Shown here in pieces: positions 1,392 through 10,800 of a stretch of 10,800 bases of DNA (position 1 is its first letter; the number at the start of each line of letters is the position of its first letter). This DNA comes from Chloroflexota bacterium. Its GTDB lineage: Bacteria; Chloroflexota; Anaerolineae; B4-G1. The stretch lies in NCBI GenBank assembly GCA_003648085.1, contig QMOC01000033.1:1-10800 (forward strand), read 5' to 3'. Position numbers and translations under genes: made by a program. The notes below the pieces were generated by a model. The model saw nothing but the letters and a program-made list of their open reading frames with translations. It made no database searches and was not told the origin of the DNA.

Positions 1392-3443
1392 GTGAGCGAA
1401 GCGCATCGTTCGAGAAACGCCGATGGCACACCGCCAGCCCAGGAGACGAGCGCCCGTGCGATCCCCTCCGCGTGGCAACGCTGGTGCGGCATACTGACCG
1501 CCTGGGTCATTGCCCTGGCCTTCGTCACCGTGGAGGTGCGCCGTGTTGCGGGTCAGGTCACCGTTCGCTACCCCGACTTTTTCGCCTGGGCGGAGCGGGC
1601 TGCCCGGTTTGACCCGCACCACCTGGCCCAGTGGCAGTGGGTGGATGGGCTATATCCGCTGGGCTACCCGCTATTGCTGCGCCTGGGGGTGGCGCTGGGT
1701 CTCGACGTCCTGAGTACCGCCTTCGCGCTCTCCATCGCCGGTGGGATTCTGGGGCTGCTGGGGGCCTTCCTGCTCATCCGGCGGATGACGGGGAGTTGGA
1801 CGCTGGCCCTGTTCACCGAAACGATCCTGGCCTGCACTGCACACTACCTCTTCTTTGCCAGCCTGGACAGCACGGATATGCTGGCGGGGGGATTGCAAAT
1901 CTGCTCCCTCGCCACTCTGTTCACAGACGGACGGCGACGCCGCGTAGCCTTTTGGTCTGGCTTGCTCGCCGGCCTCAGTTACCTCATCCGGTACACTGCC
2001 TCGCTGAGCATCCTCCTGTGCGCTCTCTACCTGGTGGGATGCGCGTGGGCCCGACGGGAGCGCGGATGGTGGTCGGTGCCTGGCGTATATCTACTTGGCG
2101 CAGCGGTGGGAGCAGCCCCTCAATTAATCGCCAGCACCCTGGTTAAAGGAAACCCATTCTATACCACTCAAGCGCATAATCTCTGGTTCCACCTCACCGG
2201 CAGCAGCGACTACATCTTCGACTGGAACGCCGTGCCGATGGATATACCCGTGTGGGAGGTCATACGCGCCTATCCGAGAGAGTTGGTCACCCACTGGCTG
2301 GCTCAATTTCGCAGTTTCTGGGTGACCCAGGACGCGGTAGTGCTGGACGCCCCCTTCGCGCCGCTGATGCAGGCCGGGTTACTCTTCACGCTGCTGGCCC
2401 CCACCGGACTCAGGCGCTCCGTCCGGACGTTCCTGGGCCTGTACGTCGTCGGCATCGTGGCTTTGCTCTCCTTCATCCGACTGGACAAGCGATTTCTCAT
2501 CGTGCTGATGCCGACGCTGGTGTTCACCACGGTGTACTTCCTGTGGACGATCCTGCCGGCCAAAATCAGGATGCGACGAGGAGCGGTCCCGTTGCGCATC
2601 CCCGTGATGATACTCCTGACCATCTGGAGCATAGGGTATCCACTACGGTTTATGCGAAGCAATCCAAAAGACCGGGGGACGCTCGAAGTGAGCAATACGC
2701 TGCACGCAGCCGGCATGCAATCTGCTGACCAGGTGTACAGTACTCACCTGCGCTACCACGACGTGGCCGATCCGTGGAAGCGCCGTTTCGCGATGGCGTT
2801 CGCCATTGCCCCAAGGCTGGAGTCGTATGAGGCTCTGCTGGAACTGCTTCAGCGTGGCGACTATTGGTTTTTCATCTACGACCGCGACACCGGCGTATCC
2901 CTGTATCCCAACCTGCAATTCCTGCTCTCGCCCGAAAGCCGACCCGAGGGCCTGGCCCCTGTGTACGTGGAGGAGAAGCGCAAGTACGTAATCTACAGGG
3001 TATTAGACGAACCACTCTCGTACCAGCCGATATACGCATCTTGGGCGAACGGTATCACGCTGAAGGGCTACGAAACGTATCTCTGCGACGACGAGCCACG
3101 ACGCAACAATCGCCAGCGTCTGGGGGTGTACCTGTACTGGCAGGCCACTCAGCCGGTGACTGATATGCTTAAGGTCTTCGTGCACGTGATGGATGCGGCC
3201 GGTCAGTTGGTCGCTCAGCACGATGGCATTCCGGCGCTGTGGACTTATTCCACCGACAGGTGGGCGGTGGGCGAGACCGTCGTGGATTTCCACCAGGTGT
3301 TGCTTGAGACGGCCCTGCCACCCGGCTCCTACTCCATACGAGTAGGCTTATATACGGAAGACGCAGGCCGGGTCGCGGTACTGGATTCGTCCGGTGCTCC
3401 GGCTGGCGACTTTGTGACCCTGCAAACCATGACCATCCCTTAG
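1392..3443 (+). CDS. Multi-span membrane glycosyltransferase (GT-C/GT39-like)
   Basis: This 683-residue integral membrane protein starts at GTG 1392, with AGGAG at 1382-1386. Hydrophobic spans are visible at about residues 31-49, 105-129, 135-156, 186-218 (one or two), 229-249, 322-337, 344-362, 366-388 and 401-420. The first extracytoplasmic loop holds YPDFFAWAERAARF and WVDGLYPLGYPLL, and RLDKRFLIVLMP precedes a late span. This plan matches ArnT/PMT-like GT-C enzymes that use polyprenyl-phosphate sugars, though a canonical DE/DD catalytic pair in the first loop is not obvious. After the last span come about 260 residues outside the membrane. They end in a beta-rich domain (about 545-683) with LYWQATQPV, KVFVHVMDAAGQLVAQHDG and LPPGSYSIRVGLY, a module often fused to such transferases in Chloroflexota. 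Sugar and acceptor cannot be told. It sits between pheS and pheT with gaps of 16 and 18 bases, so it is very likely co-transcribed. No functional link to tRNA charging is known. Confidence 0.8.
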   Translation: MSEAHRSRNADGTPPAQETSARAIPSAWQRWCGILTAWVIALAFVTVEVRRVAGQVTVRYPDFFAWAERAARFDPHHLAQWQWVDGLYPLGYPLLLRLGVALGLDVLSTAFALSIAGGILGLLGAFLLIRRMTGSWTLALFTETILACTAHYLFFASLDSTDMLAGGLQICSLATLFTDGRRRRVAFWSGLLAGLSYLIRYTASLSILLCALYLVGCAWARRERGWWSVPGVYLLGAAVGAAPQLIASTLVKGNPFYTTQAHNLWFHLTGSSDYIFDWNAVPMDIPVWEVIRAYPRELVTHWLAQFRSFWVTQDAVVLDAPFAPLMQAGLLFTLLAPTGLRRSVRTFLGLYVVGIVALLSFIRLDKRFLIVLMPTLVFTTVYFLWTILPAKIRMRRGAVPLRIPVMILLTIWSIGYPLRFMRSNPKDRGTLEVSNTLHAAGMQSADQVYSTHLRYHDVADPWKRRFAMAFAIAPRLESYEALLELLQRGDYWFFIYDRDTGVSLYPNLQFLLSPESRPEGLAPVYVEEKRKYVIYRVLDEPLSYQPIYASWANGITLKGYETYLCDDEPRRNNRQRLGVYLYWQATQPVTDMLKVFVHVMDAAGQLVAQHDGIPALWTYSTDRWAVGETVVDFHQVLLETALPPGSYSIRVGLYTEDAGRVAVLDSSGAPAGDFVTLQTMTIP

Positions 3444-3461: not shown

Positions 3462-5993
3462 ATGAAGGTTCCCTTATCCTGGCTCAAAGACTACGTAGAC
3501 ATCCCGGTTTCCATCAAGGAACTGGCCGAACGGCTGACACTGGCCGGACTGGATGTGGAGACTATCGAATACATCGGCCTACCGGGGGCTGAACTACCCT
3601 GGGACCCGGAGAAGGTCGTCGTCGGCGAGATCCGCGCCGTGTATCCCCACCCCAACGCCGACCGGCTGGTCCTGGCGGAGGTGGAGTACGGTGGCCCGGA
3701 GCCCGAAGTCGTCGTCTCCGGGCCTCCCAGTTTGCTACCACTCCGAGGGCAGAGCGATCTGCACCTCAAGGTGGCCTTCGCGATGGAGGGCGCTCGCCTC
3801 TGGGATCCCTACTCCGAGGAGCCGCGCATCAAGAAATTGAAGAAGGCCAGAATCCGCGGCGTCACTTCGCGGGCGATGGTCTGCTCGGAAAAGGAATTGG
3901 GCCTCTCCGACGAGCACGTGGACATCATCTACCTGCCCGACGACGCGCCCGTCGGTACGCCGCTGGCCGAGTACCTGGGCGACGCTGTGCTGGAGTTCGA
4001 TATCCAGGGGCCTTTCGCCCACCTGTACTCGGTCTTCGGCATCGCCCGCGAGGCGGCGGCGCTCCTCGACGTGCCGCTCAGAAGGGACGTGCTCGAAGTG
4101 CTGGAGCGACATCCGGCGGAACTGACCCCCACGCCTGACTTCATCGCGCTCGAGATCGCCGATCCTGACCTGTGCCCACGCTACTCGGCGGCCTTCATCC
4201 GAGGCGTGGAAGTGAAGCCCTCCCCCTTCTGGATGCAGATGCGGCTGCGCCGCGCCGGGATGCGTCCCATCAACAACATCGTGGACGTCACCAACTACGT
4301 GATGCTGGAGTTGGGGCAGCCGCTGCACGCCTTCGACTACCACCTCCTGCGTCCCAGGCCGGGCGAAGACCGCCCGGTCATTATCGTGCGCCGCGCCGAA
4401 CCCGGTGAGCAGATGATGACTCTCGACGGGATCTCACGCACCTTCGACGAAGAAATGCTACTCATCACCGACGGCGGCGGCCCTGTGGCCGTGGCCGGTG
4501 TGATGGGCGGTCTGGAAAGCGAGGTCACCGAGGAGACGACCGACGTCCTCCTGGAGTCGGCGAACTTCCATTTCCTCAACATCCGCCGCACCTCCCGCCT
4601 GCTGGGGCTGACGACCGACGCAAGCCAGCGCTTCGGGCGGCGGGTGGACCCGGAGTTGACGGTGAAGGCAGCGGCACGGGCGGCCCATCTGATGGCGGAA
4701 CTGGCCGGTGGCACCGTCGTCCCGGTCATCGGTGATTTGTACCCTGGCCGTCAGCCGCAGCGGGTCGTCGTCTTTGACCCGGCCTACGCCACCCGTGTCC
4801 TGGGCGTCGAGATCCCGACGGACGAAATCATCCGCATCCTCACCTCTCTTGAGTTTCAGGTTTCGGGGTTGCAGGTTTCAAGTTTAACAGACAGCGGGGA
4901 ACCTGAAACCCTGAACGTGATGGTTCCATCCCATCGCCTCGACGTCACGCGGCCCATAGACTTGGTTGAGGAGGTGGGACGCATCTGGGGCTACGACCGC
5001 TTCCCAACGACGCTTATGCGCGACGAATTGCCGCCGCAGCGGGCCAACCCCCGCCTGGAAGGGGCTGAGCGCGTGCGTGACCTTCTAACCGGCTGTGGAC
5101 TGGACGAGGTCATCACCTACTCGCTGGTGAACATTGAGGACGAGGGAAAACTGCGGCCTCAGGGGCCACCCCCTGACCCGGCCGACCATCTGCGCCTGCG
5201 GAATCCCTTGTCGGCGGAGCGTGCTTACCTGCGGCAGACGCTACTTCCCTCCCTGCTCCACACCACCCGCGAGAACCTGCGCTTCCTCGACCGCGTGGCC
5301 ATCTTCGAGATCGGCGCGGTCTACCTGCCGGTGGAGGGGCAGACGCTCCCCGACGAGCCGCGTCGGCTGGGCATCGTGATGACCGGGCCGAGAGAGGCCC
5401 GCTCGTGGCTGGAGGGACAGGACCGCGCGCCGGTGGGCTTCTACGATCTCAAGGGGGTAGTGGAGGCACTGTTGGCAGGGTTGGGTCTGGAGGGGACGTT
5501 CGAGCCGGGCGAGCACCCGGCCTTCCATCCGGGCCGCTGTGCGCAGGTGAGCGTTGGGGACGGCGCGGTGGGCGTGATGGGGGAACTGCACCCTCTGGTG
5601 CGGGAGGCCTTCGACCTGCCGGAGCAGCCTGTCTGCGCGTTGGAGTTTGACCTGGACGGGCTGCTGGCGGCCTGGGGAGCGCCGCGTAGGATGGTGCCCA
5701 TCTCCGTCCACCCGCCGGTCTACGAGGACCTGGCGCTGGTGGTGGACGAGGCAGTACCGGCAATACGGGTACGCGACCTCATCGCCCAGACCGGCAGGCC
5801 GCTTGTGCGCTCGGTCGTGCTGTTCGACGTCTATCGAGGGGAGCAAGTGGGGGCCGGTAAGAAGAGTCTAGCCTACCGCCTCACCTATCAGGCGGGCGAC
5901 CGCACGCTGACCGACCGGGAGGTTGCCAAACTGCGGGCCAAGATCGTGCGCCGGCTGGAGCGGGAACTGGGCGCGACGCTGCGAGGCACATAG
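3462..5993 (+). CDS. pheT: Phenylalanyl-tRNA synthetase beta subunit
   Basis: This is the beta subunit of phenylalanyl-tRNA synthetase. It binds tRNA-Phe and edits mischarged Tyr-tRNA-Phe, and assembles with PheS. It has 843 residues, somewhat longer than E. coli PheT (795). Domains in order are: N-terminal segment 1-38; EMAP/OB-like tRNA-binding domain about 39-160 (GEIRAVYPHPNADRLVLAEV); B3/B4 editing domain about 200-410 (INNIVDVTNYVMLELGQPLHAFD, GVMGG, then TTDASQRFGRRVDPE); B5 domain about 427-515 ending VEEVGRIWGYDRFP; class II-like core about 520-740; and an FDX-ACB anticodon-binding domain about 746-840 (PVYEDLALVVDE to KLRAKIVRRLERELG). ATG 3462 follows AGGAGGAGG (3449-3457). Two oddities are visible. 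The usual TPNRxDCLS segment before GIAREAAAL is replaced by QGPFAHLYS (182-190). The B5 domain has about 10 extra residues encoded by a repeat-rich tract (4853-4916). The reading frame is intact. Its TAG stop is also the left end of a palindromic element. Confidence 0.97.
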   Translation: MKVPLSWLKDYVDIPVSIKELAERLTLAGLDVETIEYIGLPGAELPWDPEKVVVGEIRAVYPHPNADRLVLAEVEYGGPEPEVVVSGPPSLLPLRGQSDLHLKVAFAMEGARLWDPYSEEPRIKKLKKARIRGVTSRAMVCSEKELGLSDEHVDIIYLPDDAPVGTPLAEYLGDAVLEFDIQGPFAHLYSVFGIAREAAALLDVPLRRDVLEVLERHPAELTPTPDFIALEIADPDLCPRYSAAFIRGVEVKPSPFWMQMRLRRAGMRPINNIVDVTNYVMLELGQPLHAFDYHLLRPRPGEDRPVIIVRRAEPGEQMMTLDGISRTFDEEMLLITDGGGPVAVAGVMGGLESEVTEETTDVLLESANFHFLNIRRTSRLLGLTTDASQRFGRRVDPELTVKAAARAAHLMAELAGGTVVPVIGDLYPGRQPQRVVVFDPAYATRVLGVEIPTDEIIRILTSLEFQVSGLQVSSLTDSGEPETLNVMVPSHRLDVTRPIDLVEEVGRIWGYDRFPTTLMRDELPPQRANPRLEGAERVRDLLTGCGLDEVITYSLVNIEDEGKLRPQGPPPDPADHLRLRNPLSAERAYLRQTLLPSLLHTTRENLRFLDRVAIFEIGAVYLPVEGQTLPDEPRRLGIVMTGPREARSWLEGQDRAPVGFYDLKGVVEALLAGLGLEGTFEPGEHPAFHPGRCAQVSVGDGAVGVMGELHPLVREAFDLPEQPVCALEFDLDGLLAAWGAPRRMVPISVHPPVYEDLALVVDEAVPAIRVRDLIAQTGRPLVRSVVLFDVYRGEQVGAGKKSLAYRLTYQAGDRTLTDREVAKLRAKIVRRLERELGATLRGT
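4853..4916 (+). repeat. Inverted/direct repeat tract inside pheT
   Basis: GTTTCAGGTT at 4853-4862 is a perfect inverted match to AACCTGAAAC at 4900-4909, with 37 bases between. CAGGTTTC also occurs as a direct repeat at 4857-4864 and 4872-4879, and a further CCCTGAAC closes the tract. It is richer in A/T than the surrounding GC-rich coding sequence. It encodes the stretch between EFQV and MVPSHRLD of the B5 domain, where PheT proteins usually have a much shorter turn. I infer that an intergenic-type short repeat was inserted in frame into a tolerant loop. Confidence 0.65.
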
Positions 5994-7561: not shown

Positions 7562-10333
7562 GTGACTCAAAAATGGGTTTATCCATCCCGTTCGGCCAGG
7601 GAAGAACTGGCCGAGACACTGGGCCACGAGCCCGACCTGGCCGAGATGAAAGTCATCTTCGGCGGCAAAGGGGCCGGCCTGGCCGATATGACCGACGCAG
7701 GGCTTCCCGTGCCTCCCAGTTTCACCATCACAACTGAGGCATGCGTCGAGTACATGAAGACCGGCGAGTTCCCGCCTGGAATGTGGGAACAGACGCTGGA
7801 GGCGCTCAAAGAAATCGAACGACAGACCGGCAGACGCTTCGGCGATGCGGAAAACCCGCTCCTCGTCTCTGTCCGCTCCGGCGCGCGTGTCTCCATGCCG
7901 GGGATGATGGACACCGTCCTCAACTTAGGGCTAAACGACGAGACCCGGGCCGGCCTGGCAAAACTGACCGGCAATGAGTGGTTCTCCTACGACGCCTATC
8001 GTCGCTTTATCACCATGTTCTCCGACATCGTGATGGGCCTAGACCGGGAGCATTTCGAGAAACTGCTGAGTGAGTTAAAGGAGAGGGAAGGTGTCGAGTT
8101 TGACGCCGAGGTCAGCCTGGAGGGGATGAAGCAACTGGTTGAGCAATACAAGGCCCTCTATCGGGAGCACTTCGGCCAGGAATTCCCTTCCGACCCTTAC
8201 GAGCAACTGCGGCTGGCCATCAAGGCGGTCTTCGACTCCTGGAACGGCGAGCGGGCCGTCGCCTACCGCGAGTTCAACAAGATCCCCCACGACTGGGGCA
8301 CGGCTGTCAACGTCTGTACGATGGTCTTCGGCAACATGGGCGAGCGGAGCGGCACCGGCGTCGCTTTCACCCGTGATCCGGCCACCGGCGAGAAGCGTCT
8401 GTACGGTGAGTATCTGGAAAACGCCCAAGGCGAGGACGTAGTCGCCGGCATCCGCACCCCCCTCAAGATCGCCCAGTTACAGGAGGTGATGCCCGACATC
8501 TATGAGCAGTTCGTCGAGGTGACTCAGCAACTTGAGCGCCATTACCGCGATATGCAGGATGTGGAATTCACCGTCGAGCGGGGCAAACTGTGGATGCTCC
8601 AGACCCGCACGGGCAAGCGCACGGCGGCTGCGGCAGTGAAAATCGCTGTAGATATGGTCCACGAAGGGCTGCTCACCAAAGAGGAAGCGGTGATGCGGGT
8701 CAAACCGGAGGAGGTGGACCAACTCCTGCATCCCTTCTTCGACCCAGAGGCAAAACTGAGCGCCGAGGAGCGGGGCGATCTGCTGGCGGAGGGCCTCAAC
8801 GCCTCCCCCGGTGCCGGCACCGGCATCGCCGTCTTCGACGCCAAGCGGGCCATCGAATTGGCCCGGCAGGGCAAGTCCGTCATCCTGGTGCGCCCGGAAA
8901 CCTCCCCCGACGACGTGCCGGGCATGCTCGTCTCCAAGGGTGTGCTGACTCAGCACGGGGGTGCCACCTCCCACGCGGCAGTCGTGGCGCGGGGCAACAA
9001 CCTGCCCTGCGTCGCCGGCTGTGAAGATATCAGCGTGGATGTCGAACAGGCTCAGTTCACCGTCAAGTCCACCGGACGTGTCGTTAAGGAGGGGGACGTC
9101 ATCTCCATTGACGGCGGCACCGGCGAGGTCTTCTGGGGCGAGATCCACACCCTCGAAGTCGAATATGAGAAGCAGAAAGACCTGGTCGAGTTGCTCAGTT
9201 GGGCCGATGAGATTCGCAAACTCGGGGTGCGCACCAACGCCGATTACGGTAGGGACGCCCGGCGGGCACGCCAGTTCGGAGCCGAGGGCATTGGCCTCTG
9301 CCGTACCGAGCACATGTTTTTCGATGAACGTGCGCGGGACGCGGTGGTGCGCATGATCCTGGCCGAGACAGACGAGGAACGCCAGGCCGCGCTGGATGAG
9401 ATGCTGCCTTTCCAAGAGCAGGATTTTGAGGACGTCTTCGAAGCCATGGACGGCCTGCCGGTCATCATGCGCCTCATTGACCCGCCAATGCACGAGTTCC
9501 TACCCGCCCGCGAGGAATTGATCGAGGAGGTCACCCGCCTGAAGTGCACCGACCCCGACTCACCTGAACTGGCCGAGAAAGAGAAGATGCTCGAGGTGGT
9601 CAACTCCCTGTGGGAGGTCAACCCAATGATGGGGCTGCGCGGCTGCCGGGCCGGGATTATGTACAAAGGATTGACGGAGATGCAGACCCGCGCCTACTTC
9701 CAGGCAGCCTGCCGCTGCGCCAAGCGGGGCGTGAAGGTGATGCCGGAGGTGATGATCCCACTGGTTGGCCACGTCAACGAACTGAAACTGGAGCGGGGAA
9801 AACTGGAGGCTGTGGCGAAGCAAGTGATGGACGAAGAGGGCATCGAGGTCGAGTACAAGTTTGGCACAATGATCGAGGTGCCTCGCGCTGCTCTCACCGC
9901 TGGCGAAATTGCCCAATACGCCGACTTCTTCTCCTTCGGCACCAACGATCTGACGCAGATGACCTTCGGCTACAGCCGCGACGACGCCGAAGGGAAGTTC
10001 CTGATGAATTACGTGGACGGCATCGAGACGGGCGAGGTGGATGCGGAAGGCAAGCCGGTCCCGTTCAAGATCCTGGAGGCCAACCCCTTCCAAACGCTGG
10101 ATGAGGTCGGCGTGGGGCGGCTAGTGAAGATATGTGTGGAGGAGGGACGGGCGGCCAACCCTGACCTAGAGATCGGCATCTGCGGCGAGCACGGCGGCGA
10201 CCCGGCCTCGATAGACTTCTGCCATCGCGTTGGCCTGGATTACGTGAGTTGTTCCCCCTTCCGCGTGCCGGTGGCCCGCTTGGCGGCCGCCCAGGCTACG
10301 ATCCGACATGCCTCCGACGATCGGAGAGAATGA
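7562..10333 (+). CDS. ppdK: Pyruvate, phosphate dikinase
   Basis: This enzyme interconverts ATP + pyruvate + phosphate and AMP + PEP + diphosphate through a phosphohistidine carrier. In anaerobes it serves gluconeogenesis or PPi-linked glycolysis. It has 923 residues against about 875 in well-known bacterial enzymes. The N-terminal ATP-grasp part shows GGKGAGLADM (34-43) and SVRSGARVSMPGMMDT (from 103). The swivelling domain carries GGATSHAAVVARG with the catalytic histidine at H471; canonical enzymes usually have GGMTSHAAVVARG. The C-terminal PEP/pyruvate TIM barrel has CRTEH (580-584), GLRGCRAGIM, GTNDLTQMTFGYSRDD (from 793) and GICGEHGGDP with the proton-donor cysteine C874. The GTG start follows AGGAGG (7546-7551) at 10-nt spacing, and MTQKWVYPS matches how these proteins begin. 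It has its own strong promoter and stands alone. No gene for the PPDK regulatory kinase/phosphatase is adjacent. PEP synthase and phosphotransferase enzyme I are excluded by the complete three-domain set with the PPDK N-terminus. Confidence 0.97.
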   Translation: MTQKWVYPSRSAREELAETLGHEPDLAEMKVIFGGKGAGLADMTDAGLPVPPSFTITTEACVEYMKTGEFPPGMWEQTLEALKEIERQTGRRFGDAENPLLVSVRSGARVSMPGMMDTVLNLGLNDETRAGLAKLTGNEWFSYDAYRRFITMFSDIVMGLDREHFEKLLSELKEREGVEFDAEVSLEGMKQLVEQYKALYREHFGQEFPSDPYEQLRLAIKAVFDSWNGERAVAYREFNKIPHDWGTAVNVCTMVFGNMGERSGTGVAFTRDPATGEKRLYGEYLENAQGEDVVAGIRTPLKIAQLQEVMPDIYEQFVEVTQQLERHYRDMQDVEFTVERGKLWMLQTRTGKRTAAAAVKIAVDMVHEGLLTKEEAVMRVKPEEVDQLLHPFFDPEAKLSAEERGDLLAEGLNASPGAGTGIAVFDAKRAIELARQGKSVILVRPETSPDDVPGMLVSKGVLTQHGGATSHAAVVARGNNLPCVAGCEDISVDVEQAQFTVKSTGRVVKEGDVISIDGGTGEVFWGEIHTLEVEYEKQKDLVELLSWADEIRKLGVRTNADYGRDARRARQFGAEGIGLCRTEHMFFDERARDAVVRMILAETDEERQAALDEMLPFQEQDFEDVFEAMDGLPVIMRLIDPPMHEFLPAREELIEEVTRLKCTDPDSPELAEKEKMLEVVNSLWEVNPMMGLRGCRAGIMYKGLTEMQTRAYFQAACRCAKRGVKVMPEVMIPLVGHVNELKLERGKLEAVAKQVMDEEGIEVEYKFGTMIEVPRAALTAGEIAQYADFFSFGTNDLTQMTFGYSRDDAEGKFLMNYVDGIETGEVDAEGKPVPFKILEANPFQTLDEVGVGRLVKICVEEGRAANPDLEIGICGEHGGDPASIDFCHRVGLDYVSCSPFRVPVARLAAAQATIRHASDDRRE

Positions 10334-10480: not shown

Positions 10481-10523
10481 ATGTGGCAGGTGGCGCTGGC
10501 TGCCTGCCACATATCGTTTATTC
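10481..10523 (+). terminator. Probable transcription terminator of ppdK
   Basis: ATGTGGCAGG (10481-10490) and CCTGCCACAT (10503-10512) form a perfect 10-bp stem with a 12-base loop, followed by the T-rich ATCGTTTATTCT. It lies about 150 bases after the ppdK stop. The T-tract is interrupted, so efficiency is uncertain, but no better candidate lies between the gene and the repeat cluster. Confidence 0.55.
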
Positions 10524-10589
10524 TGGCTGGAATTCGTGGGAGGTAGAGCGCGTTTCCGGTGCAAAACGAGTCTGGCTAAAATTCGTGGG
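10522..10589 (+). repeat. Direct repeat pair, 49 bases apart
   Basis: TCTGGCTGGAATTCGTGGG (10522-10540) recurs as TCTGGCTAAAATTCGTGGG (10571-10589), with 17 of 19 bases identical. The second copy is the left end of the inverted-repeat element at 10570-10664, so the first may be the end of a truncated older copy. Confidence 0.75.
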
Positions 10590-10664
10590 GAGAAAAGGCC
10601 GGAGGCCCCGCTTCAGCGGGGATTTTCCGGCTGAAGCCGGACGTCCCACTGATTTTAGCCACAC
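10570..10664. repeat. MITE-like element with 20-bp terminal inverted repeats
   Basis: The left end (10570-10589) and the reverse complement of the right end (10645-10664) match at 17 of 20 bases, including a perfect core TGGCTAAAAT (10573-10582) against ATTTTAGCCA (10652-10661). The 95-bp element encloses two hairpins: CCCCGC/GCGGGG around TTCA (10606-10621), and CCGGC/GCCGG around TGAA (10627-10640). Near-identical 12-mers, CCGGTGCAAAAC (10556-10567) and CCCGTGCAAAAC (10664-10675), flank it and might be a target duplication. It has no coding capacity, so any mobilising enzyme would be elsewhere. Confidence 0.7.
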
Positions 10665-10792
10665 CCGTGCAAAACTCGACGGAGGCCCCGATTTATCAGG
10701 GTTGGATCTTTGGGATTTCCCGTGGCCAGGATTCGGATGCCCCAACTTGTTGGGGTTGCCCGCTGGCAAACCCGAACAAGTTCGGACCCCCG
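10600..10792. repeat. Array of paired hairpins with reverse-complementary cores
   Basis: Unit 1 (10600-10647) reads CCCC-GCTTCAGC-GGGG, then ATTTT, then CCG-GCTGAAGC-CGG. Unit 2 (10734-10792) reads CCCC-AACTTGTT-GGGG, then a small TTGCC/GGCAA hairpin (10756-10769), then CCG-AACAAGTT-CGG. In each unit the second 8-base core is the exact reverse complement of the first, but the cores differ between units while the CCCC/GGGG and CCG/CGG frames stay the same. A degenerate middle unit starts at 10680 (CCCC-GATTTATC-AGGG) and lacks its matching partner. The units are bordered by a decamer close to CGGANGYCCC at 10600, 10638, 10680, 10734 and 10783. The array reaches nearly to the window edge and may continue. 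Confidence 0.75.
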
Positions 10793-10800
10793 GTGCGCCC

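Follow-up and report, generated by a model that had tools for sequence, protein, structure and literature searches.

Paired hairpins with matched cores at a Chloroflexota locus: probable REP dimers inside MITEs

Among described systems, REPINs and their transposases, the RAYTs (Bertels and Rainey 2011, PMC3116915; Quentin et al. 2018, PMC6006769), come closest to the paired hairpins analysed here. According to these papers, a REPIN consists of two inverted REP hairpins separated by a short spacer and can form two hairpins or one long one, the hairpins cluster at a dedicated RAYT, and the REP type follows the RAYT clade; the present hairpins are similar in all of these respects. The 5′ foot of the hairpin, GT[AG]G in the REPIN/RAYT systems, is GGANN here, and two RAYT subclasses with feet other than GT[AG]G have been described (PMC6006769). 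Furthermore, unlike REPINs, the dimers of the window (the whole 10,800-nt stretch of DNA that was analysed, which is the entire contig C33 of the window genome) are enclosed by MITEs, which have terminal repeats and are flanked by target duplications, in a genome that has no RAYT over the cut-off used below.

A fixed frame around a variable 8-base core is also found in the Neisseria dRS3 element, ATTCCC-N8-GGGAAT, the foot of which is different, and this likeness is a lead only. By analogy with dRS3, the CGTC motif of the corresponding REP class is placed on the 5′ side. dRS3 is filed under CGTC-1 in PMC3733652 section 6. As the text of this section, the source of the definition used here, is understood, CGTC marks one end of these repeats and the first stem pairs are A/T; in the window, the stems start with C/G, the 5′ feet read GGANN, and CGTC-like letters are found on the 3′ side. 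Membership in the CGTC class, suspected at first, was therefore rejected, as the tag is on the other side of the hairpin. PMC3733652 reports no transposase gene flanked by CGTC repeats, whereas the present GGANN hairpins flank RAYT genes.

REP dimers in general (Di Nocera et al. 2013, PMC3733652) are described as head-to-head pairs with arms that are equal, like those of families A and C below, or unequal, like those of family B. The presence of some of them inside longer palindromes has already been reported (A. variabilis, H. neapolitanus; section 7 of that paper). The bacterial MITEs covered by the same text (NEMIS, Nezha, ERIC and others) resemble the elements of the window genome in their length of ~100 bp, terminal inverted repeats, target duplications, high copy number and lack of coding capacity. 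What sets the present elements apart from the MITEs listed there is a hairpin-dimer interior that is common to several families whose ends are unrelated. The Marinomonas TnpA-REP (PMC8266576) reads a REP with a TTTA loop, in which the first T and the last A are important. This corresponds to the TTYA class of unit 1 and family B, and it is by loop class that this enzyme is likened to the present RAYTs; it differs by its GTAG motif.

The paired hairpins, in which the earlier note had recognised no named element, probably belong to an already named class, that of inverted REP dimers, also called REPINs (PMC3116915 and PMC3733652), here within MITEs. Each unit is likely to be an inverted REP-hairpin dimer, i.e. 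a REPIN-like core, within a non-autonomous DDE-type MITE. The new points are the foot other than GTAG and the capture by several unrelated MITEs. In the open-licence literature, no report was found of a GGANN foot or of a dimer interior common to several MITE families.

A nest of three MITEs at the end of the window

The window genome assembly comprises 3.05 Mb in 559 contigs and is 83% complete. The two hairpin pairs of the window, units 1 and 2, are found in a nest of MITEs that lies 3′ of the pyruvate phosphate dikinase gene. The features are as follows.

347–1372: pheS
3462–5990: pheT
7562–10330: pyruvate phosphate dikinase gene
10552–10567, plus strand: left part of a family-B MITE, GTTTCCGGTGCAAAAC, which includes the first target duplication copy and matches the B left end seen in 15 copies
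10559–10567, plus strand: target-site duplication copy 1, GTGCAAAAC, identical in 9 of 9 bases to 10667–10675
10568–10666, plus strand: family-A MITE, complete at 99 bp, that contains unit 1; four other copies have the same 99 bases
10568–10589, plus strand: left terminal inverted repeat of A
10606–10621, plus strand: hairpin 1 of unit 1, CCCC-GCTTCAGC-GGGG, with the foot GGAGG on the 5′ side
10627–10640, minus strand: hairpin 2 of unit 1, CCG-GCTGAAGC-CGG, with the minus-strand foot GGACG and loop TTCA
10645–10666, minus strand: right terminal inverted repeat of A
10667–10675, plus strand: target-site duplication copy 2, GTGCAAAAC
10676–10703, plus strand: middle part of the same B copy, with the hairpin CCCCGATTTATCAGGG and the C target at its end (10696–10703)
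10704–10800, plus strand: family-C MITE that contains unit 2 and is truncated where the contig ends, 98% match to C over 97 of 120 bases
10740–10755, plus strand: hairpin 1 of unit 2, CCCC-AACTTGTT-GGGG, with the foot GGATG
10756–10771, plus strand: spacer of unit 2, which can form TTGCC-CGCT-GGCAA
10772–10785, minus strand: hairpin 2 of unit 2, CCG-AACAAGTT-CGG, with the minus-strand loop CTTG

As the earlier note had pointed out, the units share one frame (10606–10640 and 10740–10785), and in both of them the second core equals the reverse complement of the first without a mismatch. The cores are nearly self-complementary, GCT-TC-AGC in unit 1 and AAC-TT-GTT in unit 2, so that, with the stems agreeing, the ‘reverse complement’ rests on two central bases per unit. 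The feet of the four hairpins are GGAGG, GGACG, GGATG and GGGGT; the last, read on the minus strand of unit 2 hairpin 2, departs from GGANN, and none is the 5′ GTAG or GTGG of the GTAG REPs. The interiors of A, B and C all consist of two hairpins in inverted orientation, as in a REPIN. No Rfam family matches the window at gathering score, and a known structured RNA was therefore rejected as the identity of the units.

The ends of the MITEs were read from 60 stretches of the window genome around copies of the frame. Family A is 99 bp long, has the inverted ends GRGTCTGGCTAAAATTCGTGGG and CCCACTGATTTTAGCCACACCC, and gave at least 50 matches in the window genome, a lower bound that stems from scoring 40 of 133 first-look candidates; five 99-bp copies, including that of the window, are identical. 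Of its 24 two-ended copies, 20 are flanked by a 9-bp duplication matching in at least seven positions (in all nine in 10 copies, the window’s included), and four (L019, L023, L027 and L052) have no qualifying duplication. Family C, with 14 matches in the window genome, has the ends GGATCTTTGGGATTTCCCGTGG and CCACGGCAAYTCYCAGAGAGCC and a full length of 120 bp, as seen in contig C202. Its 8-bp duplication, judged by eye, is present in five of eight full two-ended copies and missing in L071, L072 and L075; the internally deleted copy L081 was left out of this count. The terminal inverted repeats of ~22 bp in A and ~22 bp in C are within the 15–30 bp expected of MITEs, and the target duplication of each has the expected constant length, 9 bp in A and 8 bp in C. 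Family B measures 89 bp (GTTT...GAAC), and its duplication of ~6 bp is clear in only some of the 15 copies.

One and the same B copy of the window is split by A at GTGCAAAAC and also contains C. Contig C202 starts within A and shows this arrangement up to the right end of B (L048, L070), with TCGGGGTT flanking C on both sides at the place where C splits B. These two arrangements together make the ‘array’ a nest of three elements, with A and C inserted in one copy of B.

Several further observations concern the window and its surroundings. The start of C202 repeats window positions 10629–10800 with small differences and then continues, and the assembly break at the window end and C202 seems to have fallen within the hairpins. 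A degenerate A-type end with three mismatches (10520–10540), directly left of the nest, is perhaps the remnant of an older copy. A frame of 683 residues at 1392–3440, between pheS and pheT, has no NCBIfam match at 1e-10.

The search for an autonomous partner of A, in which frames were read by eye near unpaired A-type ends, recognised no transposase. Likewise, inspection by eye of the frames at unpaired A and C ends and their flanks on C28, C157, C164, C444, C176 and C102, and of ~300 bases on each of C432 and C49, revealed no obvious transposase. The A ends occur in one of 48 genomes of the order, the window genome itself. ISKra4 was rejected as the source of A, since this family has no match in the window genome. 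The ends of C presumably resemble those of ISL3-type elements.

Core changes within families and folding of the units

The genome-wide search proposed in the earlier note was carried out with the frame pattern CCCC-N8-GGGG ... CCG-N8-CGG. It gave 94 matches in the window genome, a few of which overlap one another, and five for a reversed-pattern control, i.e. the matches exceed chance by far; the cores are exactly matched in 35 of the 94. The copies are not independent, as most of them descend from a few amplified elements. Assigned by core alone, the matches fall into family A type (GCTTCAGC/GCTGAAGC, 32 copies and 14 deviating), family B (GATTTATC/GCTGAAGC, 19 copies and 14 deviating, 33 in all, with unmatched cores in the same frame), family C (AACTTGTT/AACAAGTT, three copies and one deviating) and 11 background or other matches. 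Some copies typed as A by their core have other ends, which are of type D in L050, L068 and L128, or belong to a B copy (L036).

According to the first proposal of the earlier note, the cores pair with each other, in kissing loops, a cruciform or a long stem, and selection keeps this pairing while the sequence drifts. The exact match of the arms in 35 copies speaks for such pairing, and so does part of the folding data. At its lowest energy, the DNA of the entire A element folds into a single long rod with the two cores paired together (−26.9 kcal/mol, z −4.6), the fold of 10670–10800 likewise joins the cores of unit 2 in one long stem (−25.8 kcal/mol, z −1.6), and unit 2 alone prefers one long stem (−16.1 kcal/mol) to three hairpins (−13.3 kcal/mol). 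Unit 1 alone, however, prefers two hairpins (−13.4 kcal/mol) to a hand-drawn long stem (−10.0 kcal/mol). Since REP dimers are known in both conformations, two hairpins or a long stem (PMC3733652, text of section 14), fold energy does not decide between the explanations, and the decision falls to the uncompensated changes. Families A, B and C have 29 deviating copies between them, and none of these carries a compensating change in the other arm. The 33 B copies are moreover the very outcome, copies with unrelated cores, that the note had named as contrary to its claim, and none of the ten variants listed from other genomes (see below) is compensated. Although the whole-element folds favour a long stem, both kissing loops and a kept long stem were rejected on these changes; selection for pairing is largely refuted and must be regarded as very unlikely.

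The same copies bear on the second proposal of the note, an inversion-type copying step that would rebuild one hairpin of a pair from its partner. Such a step could be a template switch or a gene conversion between the arms. The inverted, near-identical arms and the tandemly expanded core of some A copies would fit it, but deviations are not homogenised between the arms in any of the 29 copies, and B is still heterodimeric in 33. The basal stems also differ (CCCC/GGGG versus CCG/CGG), which is a weak point because the search pattern itself demands it. Regeneration by copying is, on these grounds, highly improbable.

Most likely, the arms change together because one transposase reads both of them, and the two halves probably match as binding sites of one DNA-cutting enzyme rather than by mutual pairing. 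A RAYT, an HUH/Y1 single-strand transposase, would read the foot GGANN and the hairpin core on one strand, and an inverted dimer would then have to carry the same core on opposite strands. The arms would look like reverse complements since they would be two inverted sites of one strand-specific enzyme. Different RAYT lineages would read different cores, so that the arms would change together between families without compensation within a family. At some point, the dimers would have been captured inside elements with terminal repeats, and a separate transposase would have moved these elements round the window genome. According to PMC8266576, TnpA-REP enzymes read their REP strand-specifically in vitro, and a reverse-complement loop severely impairs both cleavage and binding by the S. 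maltophilia enzyme. Under the one-transposase model, family B and the L257 dimer AATTTATT/AACTTGTT would be heterodimers, an arrangement known for REPs (PMC3733652, text of section 14). A puzzling covariation rule is thereby replaced by a testable one, namely that the arms match as one transposase reads both.

RAYT genes and their hairpins

The exact hairpin pair of unit 2 (CCCCAACTTGTTGGGG, 3–30 bases, CCGAACAAGTTCGG) was found in 67 stretches of the GTDB collection, which belong, by their record titles, to Chloroflexota (44), Poribacteria (17) and Armatimonadetes (6). The pair is identical over 30 fixed bases across the three phyla; as the core was fixed in this search, the result shows that the core is conserved, not that other cores are absent. 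A total of 95 places were listed for the pair, with L090 and L099 repeating L230 and L212. The spacers differ freely, and the outer bases are mostly GGATG...GCATCC in Poribacteria, GGACG...GCGTCC in Armatimonadetes, and GGACT or GGAGT...GACTCC or GAGTCC in Chloroflexota. The core-free frame pattern gave 102 matches in eight of 395 other genomes of the class and one match for the control. This class is taken to be Anaerolineae, since one of its genomes, G073, agrees with the Anaerolineales UBA3071 loci both in position and in the RAYT, where L243 and L323 gave identical results. The 27 of these that were listed comprise 16 exact AACTTGTT/AACAAGTT pairs, 10 with variants of one or two bases (e.g. 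AACTCGTT with AACAAGTT), all uncompensated, and one unrelated match.

Y1 transposase genes were sought in six genomes holding the unit-2 pair, which yielded 20 Y1 loci. Several AACTTGTT hairpins adjoin the gene at four of them (L243, L244, L251 and L257), and the proteins of these four exceed the cut-off of NCBIfam NF047646 (REP-associated tyrosine transposase). The best match of the L243 protein among solved structures is TnpArep (4er8, E 5.5e-7). We take this structure to be that of the E. coli protein. The AACTTGTT hairpins are found on both sides of the RAYT at L244, L251, L257 and L329; L243 has them on one side and the one-base variant AACGAGTT on the other, and L246 is a Y1 locus with a single AACTTGTT hairpin. 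Altogether, the same hairpins flank the gene, as in REPIN systems, at five RAYTs in five genomes, in four of them on both sides.

RAYTs over the cut-off are present in 107 of 298 genomes of the class. The window genome, at 83% completeness, has none over it and a single match with an E of 1.8e-6, so that it lacks the RAYT in the same genome that would make a REPtron. The only Y1 gene detected there, L069 on C272, is of the IS200 type. Hairpin clusters with TGAA/TTCA centres adjoin this gene; of the three TTCA-loop hairpins read, the foot is GGAAA in one and departs from GGANN in the other two. L069, considered as the mobiliser of the units, is less likely in this role in view of its type and of these hairpins.

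For comparison of feet and loops with the RAYT proteins, 60 further loci were added to those in hand and recurrent hairpins were tabulated; 24 of 110 Y1/RAYT loci, besides L069, had no RAYT frame by motif and were left out, and the first tree also omits three duplicates and one long row. All five AACTTGTT RAYTs, among them L329, group in a single clade (support 99/89; 99/98 in a second tree). Nine of ten RAYTs with TTYA (TRAA) loops fall into another clade (100/99), the TTYA hairpins of which carry the classical GTAG foot; L327, where no TTYA hairpin was detected, falls inside this clade, and L280 is separate from it, on a long branch. Among RAYTs from 400 genomes of the phylum, those closest to L243 are L406, L407 and L408 (50, 49 and 45% identity), and the hairpins adjoining these three RAYTs combine TTYA loops with a GGANN foot. 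In a tree of 39 rows, which lacks L408 because no frame was extracted for it, a branch with support 95/92 separates 14 GTAG-foot RAYTs from seven GGANN-foot RAYTs, and 13 of the 18 ungrouped rows also lie on the GGANN side.

Feet were also scanned at 21 RAYT loci, two of which, L288 and L296, coincide with L406 and L408. At L316, L340, L342 and L324, GGANN feet accompany additional cores (GGCTTGCC, GACACGTC, GCCTTGGC and others). The scan also found near-GGANN feet with other cores at L313, L321 and L319, one near-GGANN foot at L291 and one GTAG foot at L310; 10 of the 21 have no foot-bearing hairpin. The GGANN foot is degenerate, and the window-genome background is itself rich in these elements: of 300 random 2-kb segments of this genome, 44 contain a GGANN-foot hairpin (17 at least two) and 22 a GTAG-foot hairpin (four at least two). 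Hairpin cores seen at least twice within 2 kb occur at 41 of 83 RAYT loci versus 20 of 400 random segments, or 35 of 83 versus 12 of 400 for stems of at least 7, the background in both cases being the window genome, which is distinct from the RAYT genomes.

The GGANN-side RAYT loci, 16 in number, were searched for adjacent plus- and minus-strand hairpins. Eight gave nine distinct dimers and eight gave none by the criteria used. The two cores of a dimer differ at no position in six cases, at one in two and at two in one, a mean of 0.44 of 8, versus an average of 4.45 of 8 (56 comparisons) for arms from different clades. Four of the nine dimers belong to the AACTTGTT clade, which leaves about four independent lineages. 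What stands of the fixed frame with a variable core described in the earlier note is a core common to both arms; its preservation by pairing is not supported.

These data also bear on a third alternative, in which the hairpin pairs are internal palindromes of the MITEs that act as RNA or DNA structures (a terminator or mRNA stabiliser) and owe their likeness to RAYT-side hairpins to convergence. All copies of A, B and C that were read do lie in MITEs, there is no RAYT over the cut-off in the window genome, and the GCTTCAGC pair is absent among the 27 listed of the 102 matches in 395 other genomes. Convergence would, however, have to account for a unit-2 pair that is identical over 30 bases in three phyla and lies beside RAYTs of one clade, and for foot and loop classes that follow the RAYT clades. 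This makes the palindrome explanation unlikely, and an origin of the dimers as RAYT substrates is preferred.

The putative RAYT link of unit 1 is less certain than that of unit 2. None of the RAYTs examined has the exact GCTTCAGC core together with a GGANN foot next to it, and the link therefore rests on foot, loop and sister clades: the core and TTCA loop of unit 1 fit the TTYA class, and its feet, GGAGG and GGACG, fit the GGANN class. RAYT–REP pairs with a non-GTAG guide are of wider use, since foot and core can be mapped on the RAYT protein tree and specificity thus becomes testable. Two loci deserve separate mention. In Poribacteria, the L257 RAYT is flanked by AACTTGTT REPs and is 43% identical to L243 of Chloroflexota, which is an old or a transferred RAYT–REP pair. 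At L411 (G742), a single GTAG-foot TTYA hairpin recurs sixteen times around the RAYT with regular spacing.

Inverted ends around the dimers

The AACTTGTT dimer is found between inverted ends of several kinds: those of C in the window genome, CTAGCAG ends in G007 (L090), and AAACTGTATGAAG/TTCGGTAAT ends in Poribacteria. The ends around it in UBA3071 (L210) and G006 (L099) are, we assume, ISL3-like. Hairpins of the GCTTCAGC type occur with A, B and D ends, the last of which were read by eye. An inverted-flank test was applied to 93 places, of which four were dropped for short flanks and 53 of the remaining 89 for array neighbours, leaving 36 solitary dimers, all from genomes other than that of the window. 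Inverted flanks with a score of at least 10 were found at 10 of these 36, versus 5.3% of mispaired controls; at higher thresholds, the values are 5 of 36 versus 2.3% (at least 12), 1 of 36 versus 1.1% (at least 14) and 0 of 36 versus 0.6% (at least 16). The excess is thus confined to the middle score range. Since most solitary dimers have no detectable ends, capture looks recurrent but far from universal. It could have occurred by insertion of a REPIN between the ends of a MITE or by formation of a MITE round a REPIN.

A more general picture is plausible, if somewhat short of probable. A broad RAYT group in Chloroflexota, and also in Poribacteria, would use a GGANN instead of a GTAG guide with CTTG, TTYA and other cores, and its REPINs would have been captured repeatedly by unrelated DDE-type MITEs (A, B, C and D, and those with ISL3-like, CTAGCAG and TTCGGTAAT/AAACTGTATGAAG ends). 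The result would be a single-strand HUH transposon inside a double-strand DDE transposon, able to spread by either route. REP dimers and MITEs, which are commonly regarded as separate subjects, would on this evidence have joined more than once, and such unions may account for the persistence of REP-like hairpins where a genome has no RAYT.

The interior of the captured element is itself variable in one respect. Inside some A copies, the hairpin core is multiplied (C232:288–562, L121; C157, L113; L009, L014, L017 and L025), and the core array on C232 falls within an open frame of 173 codons.
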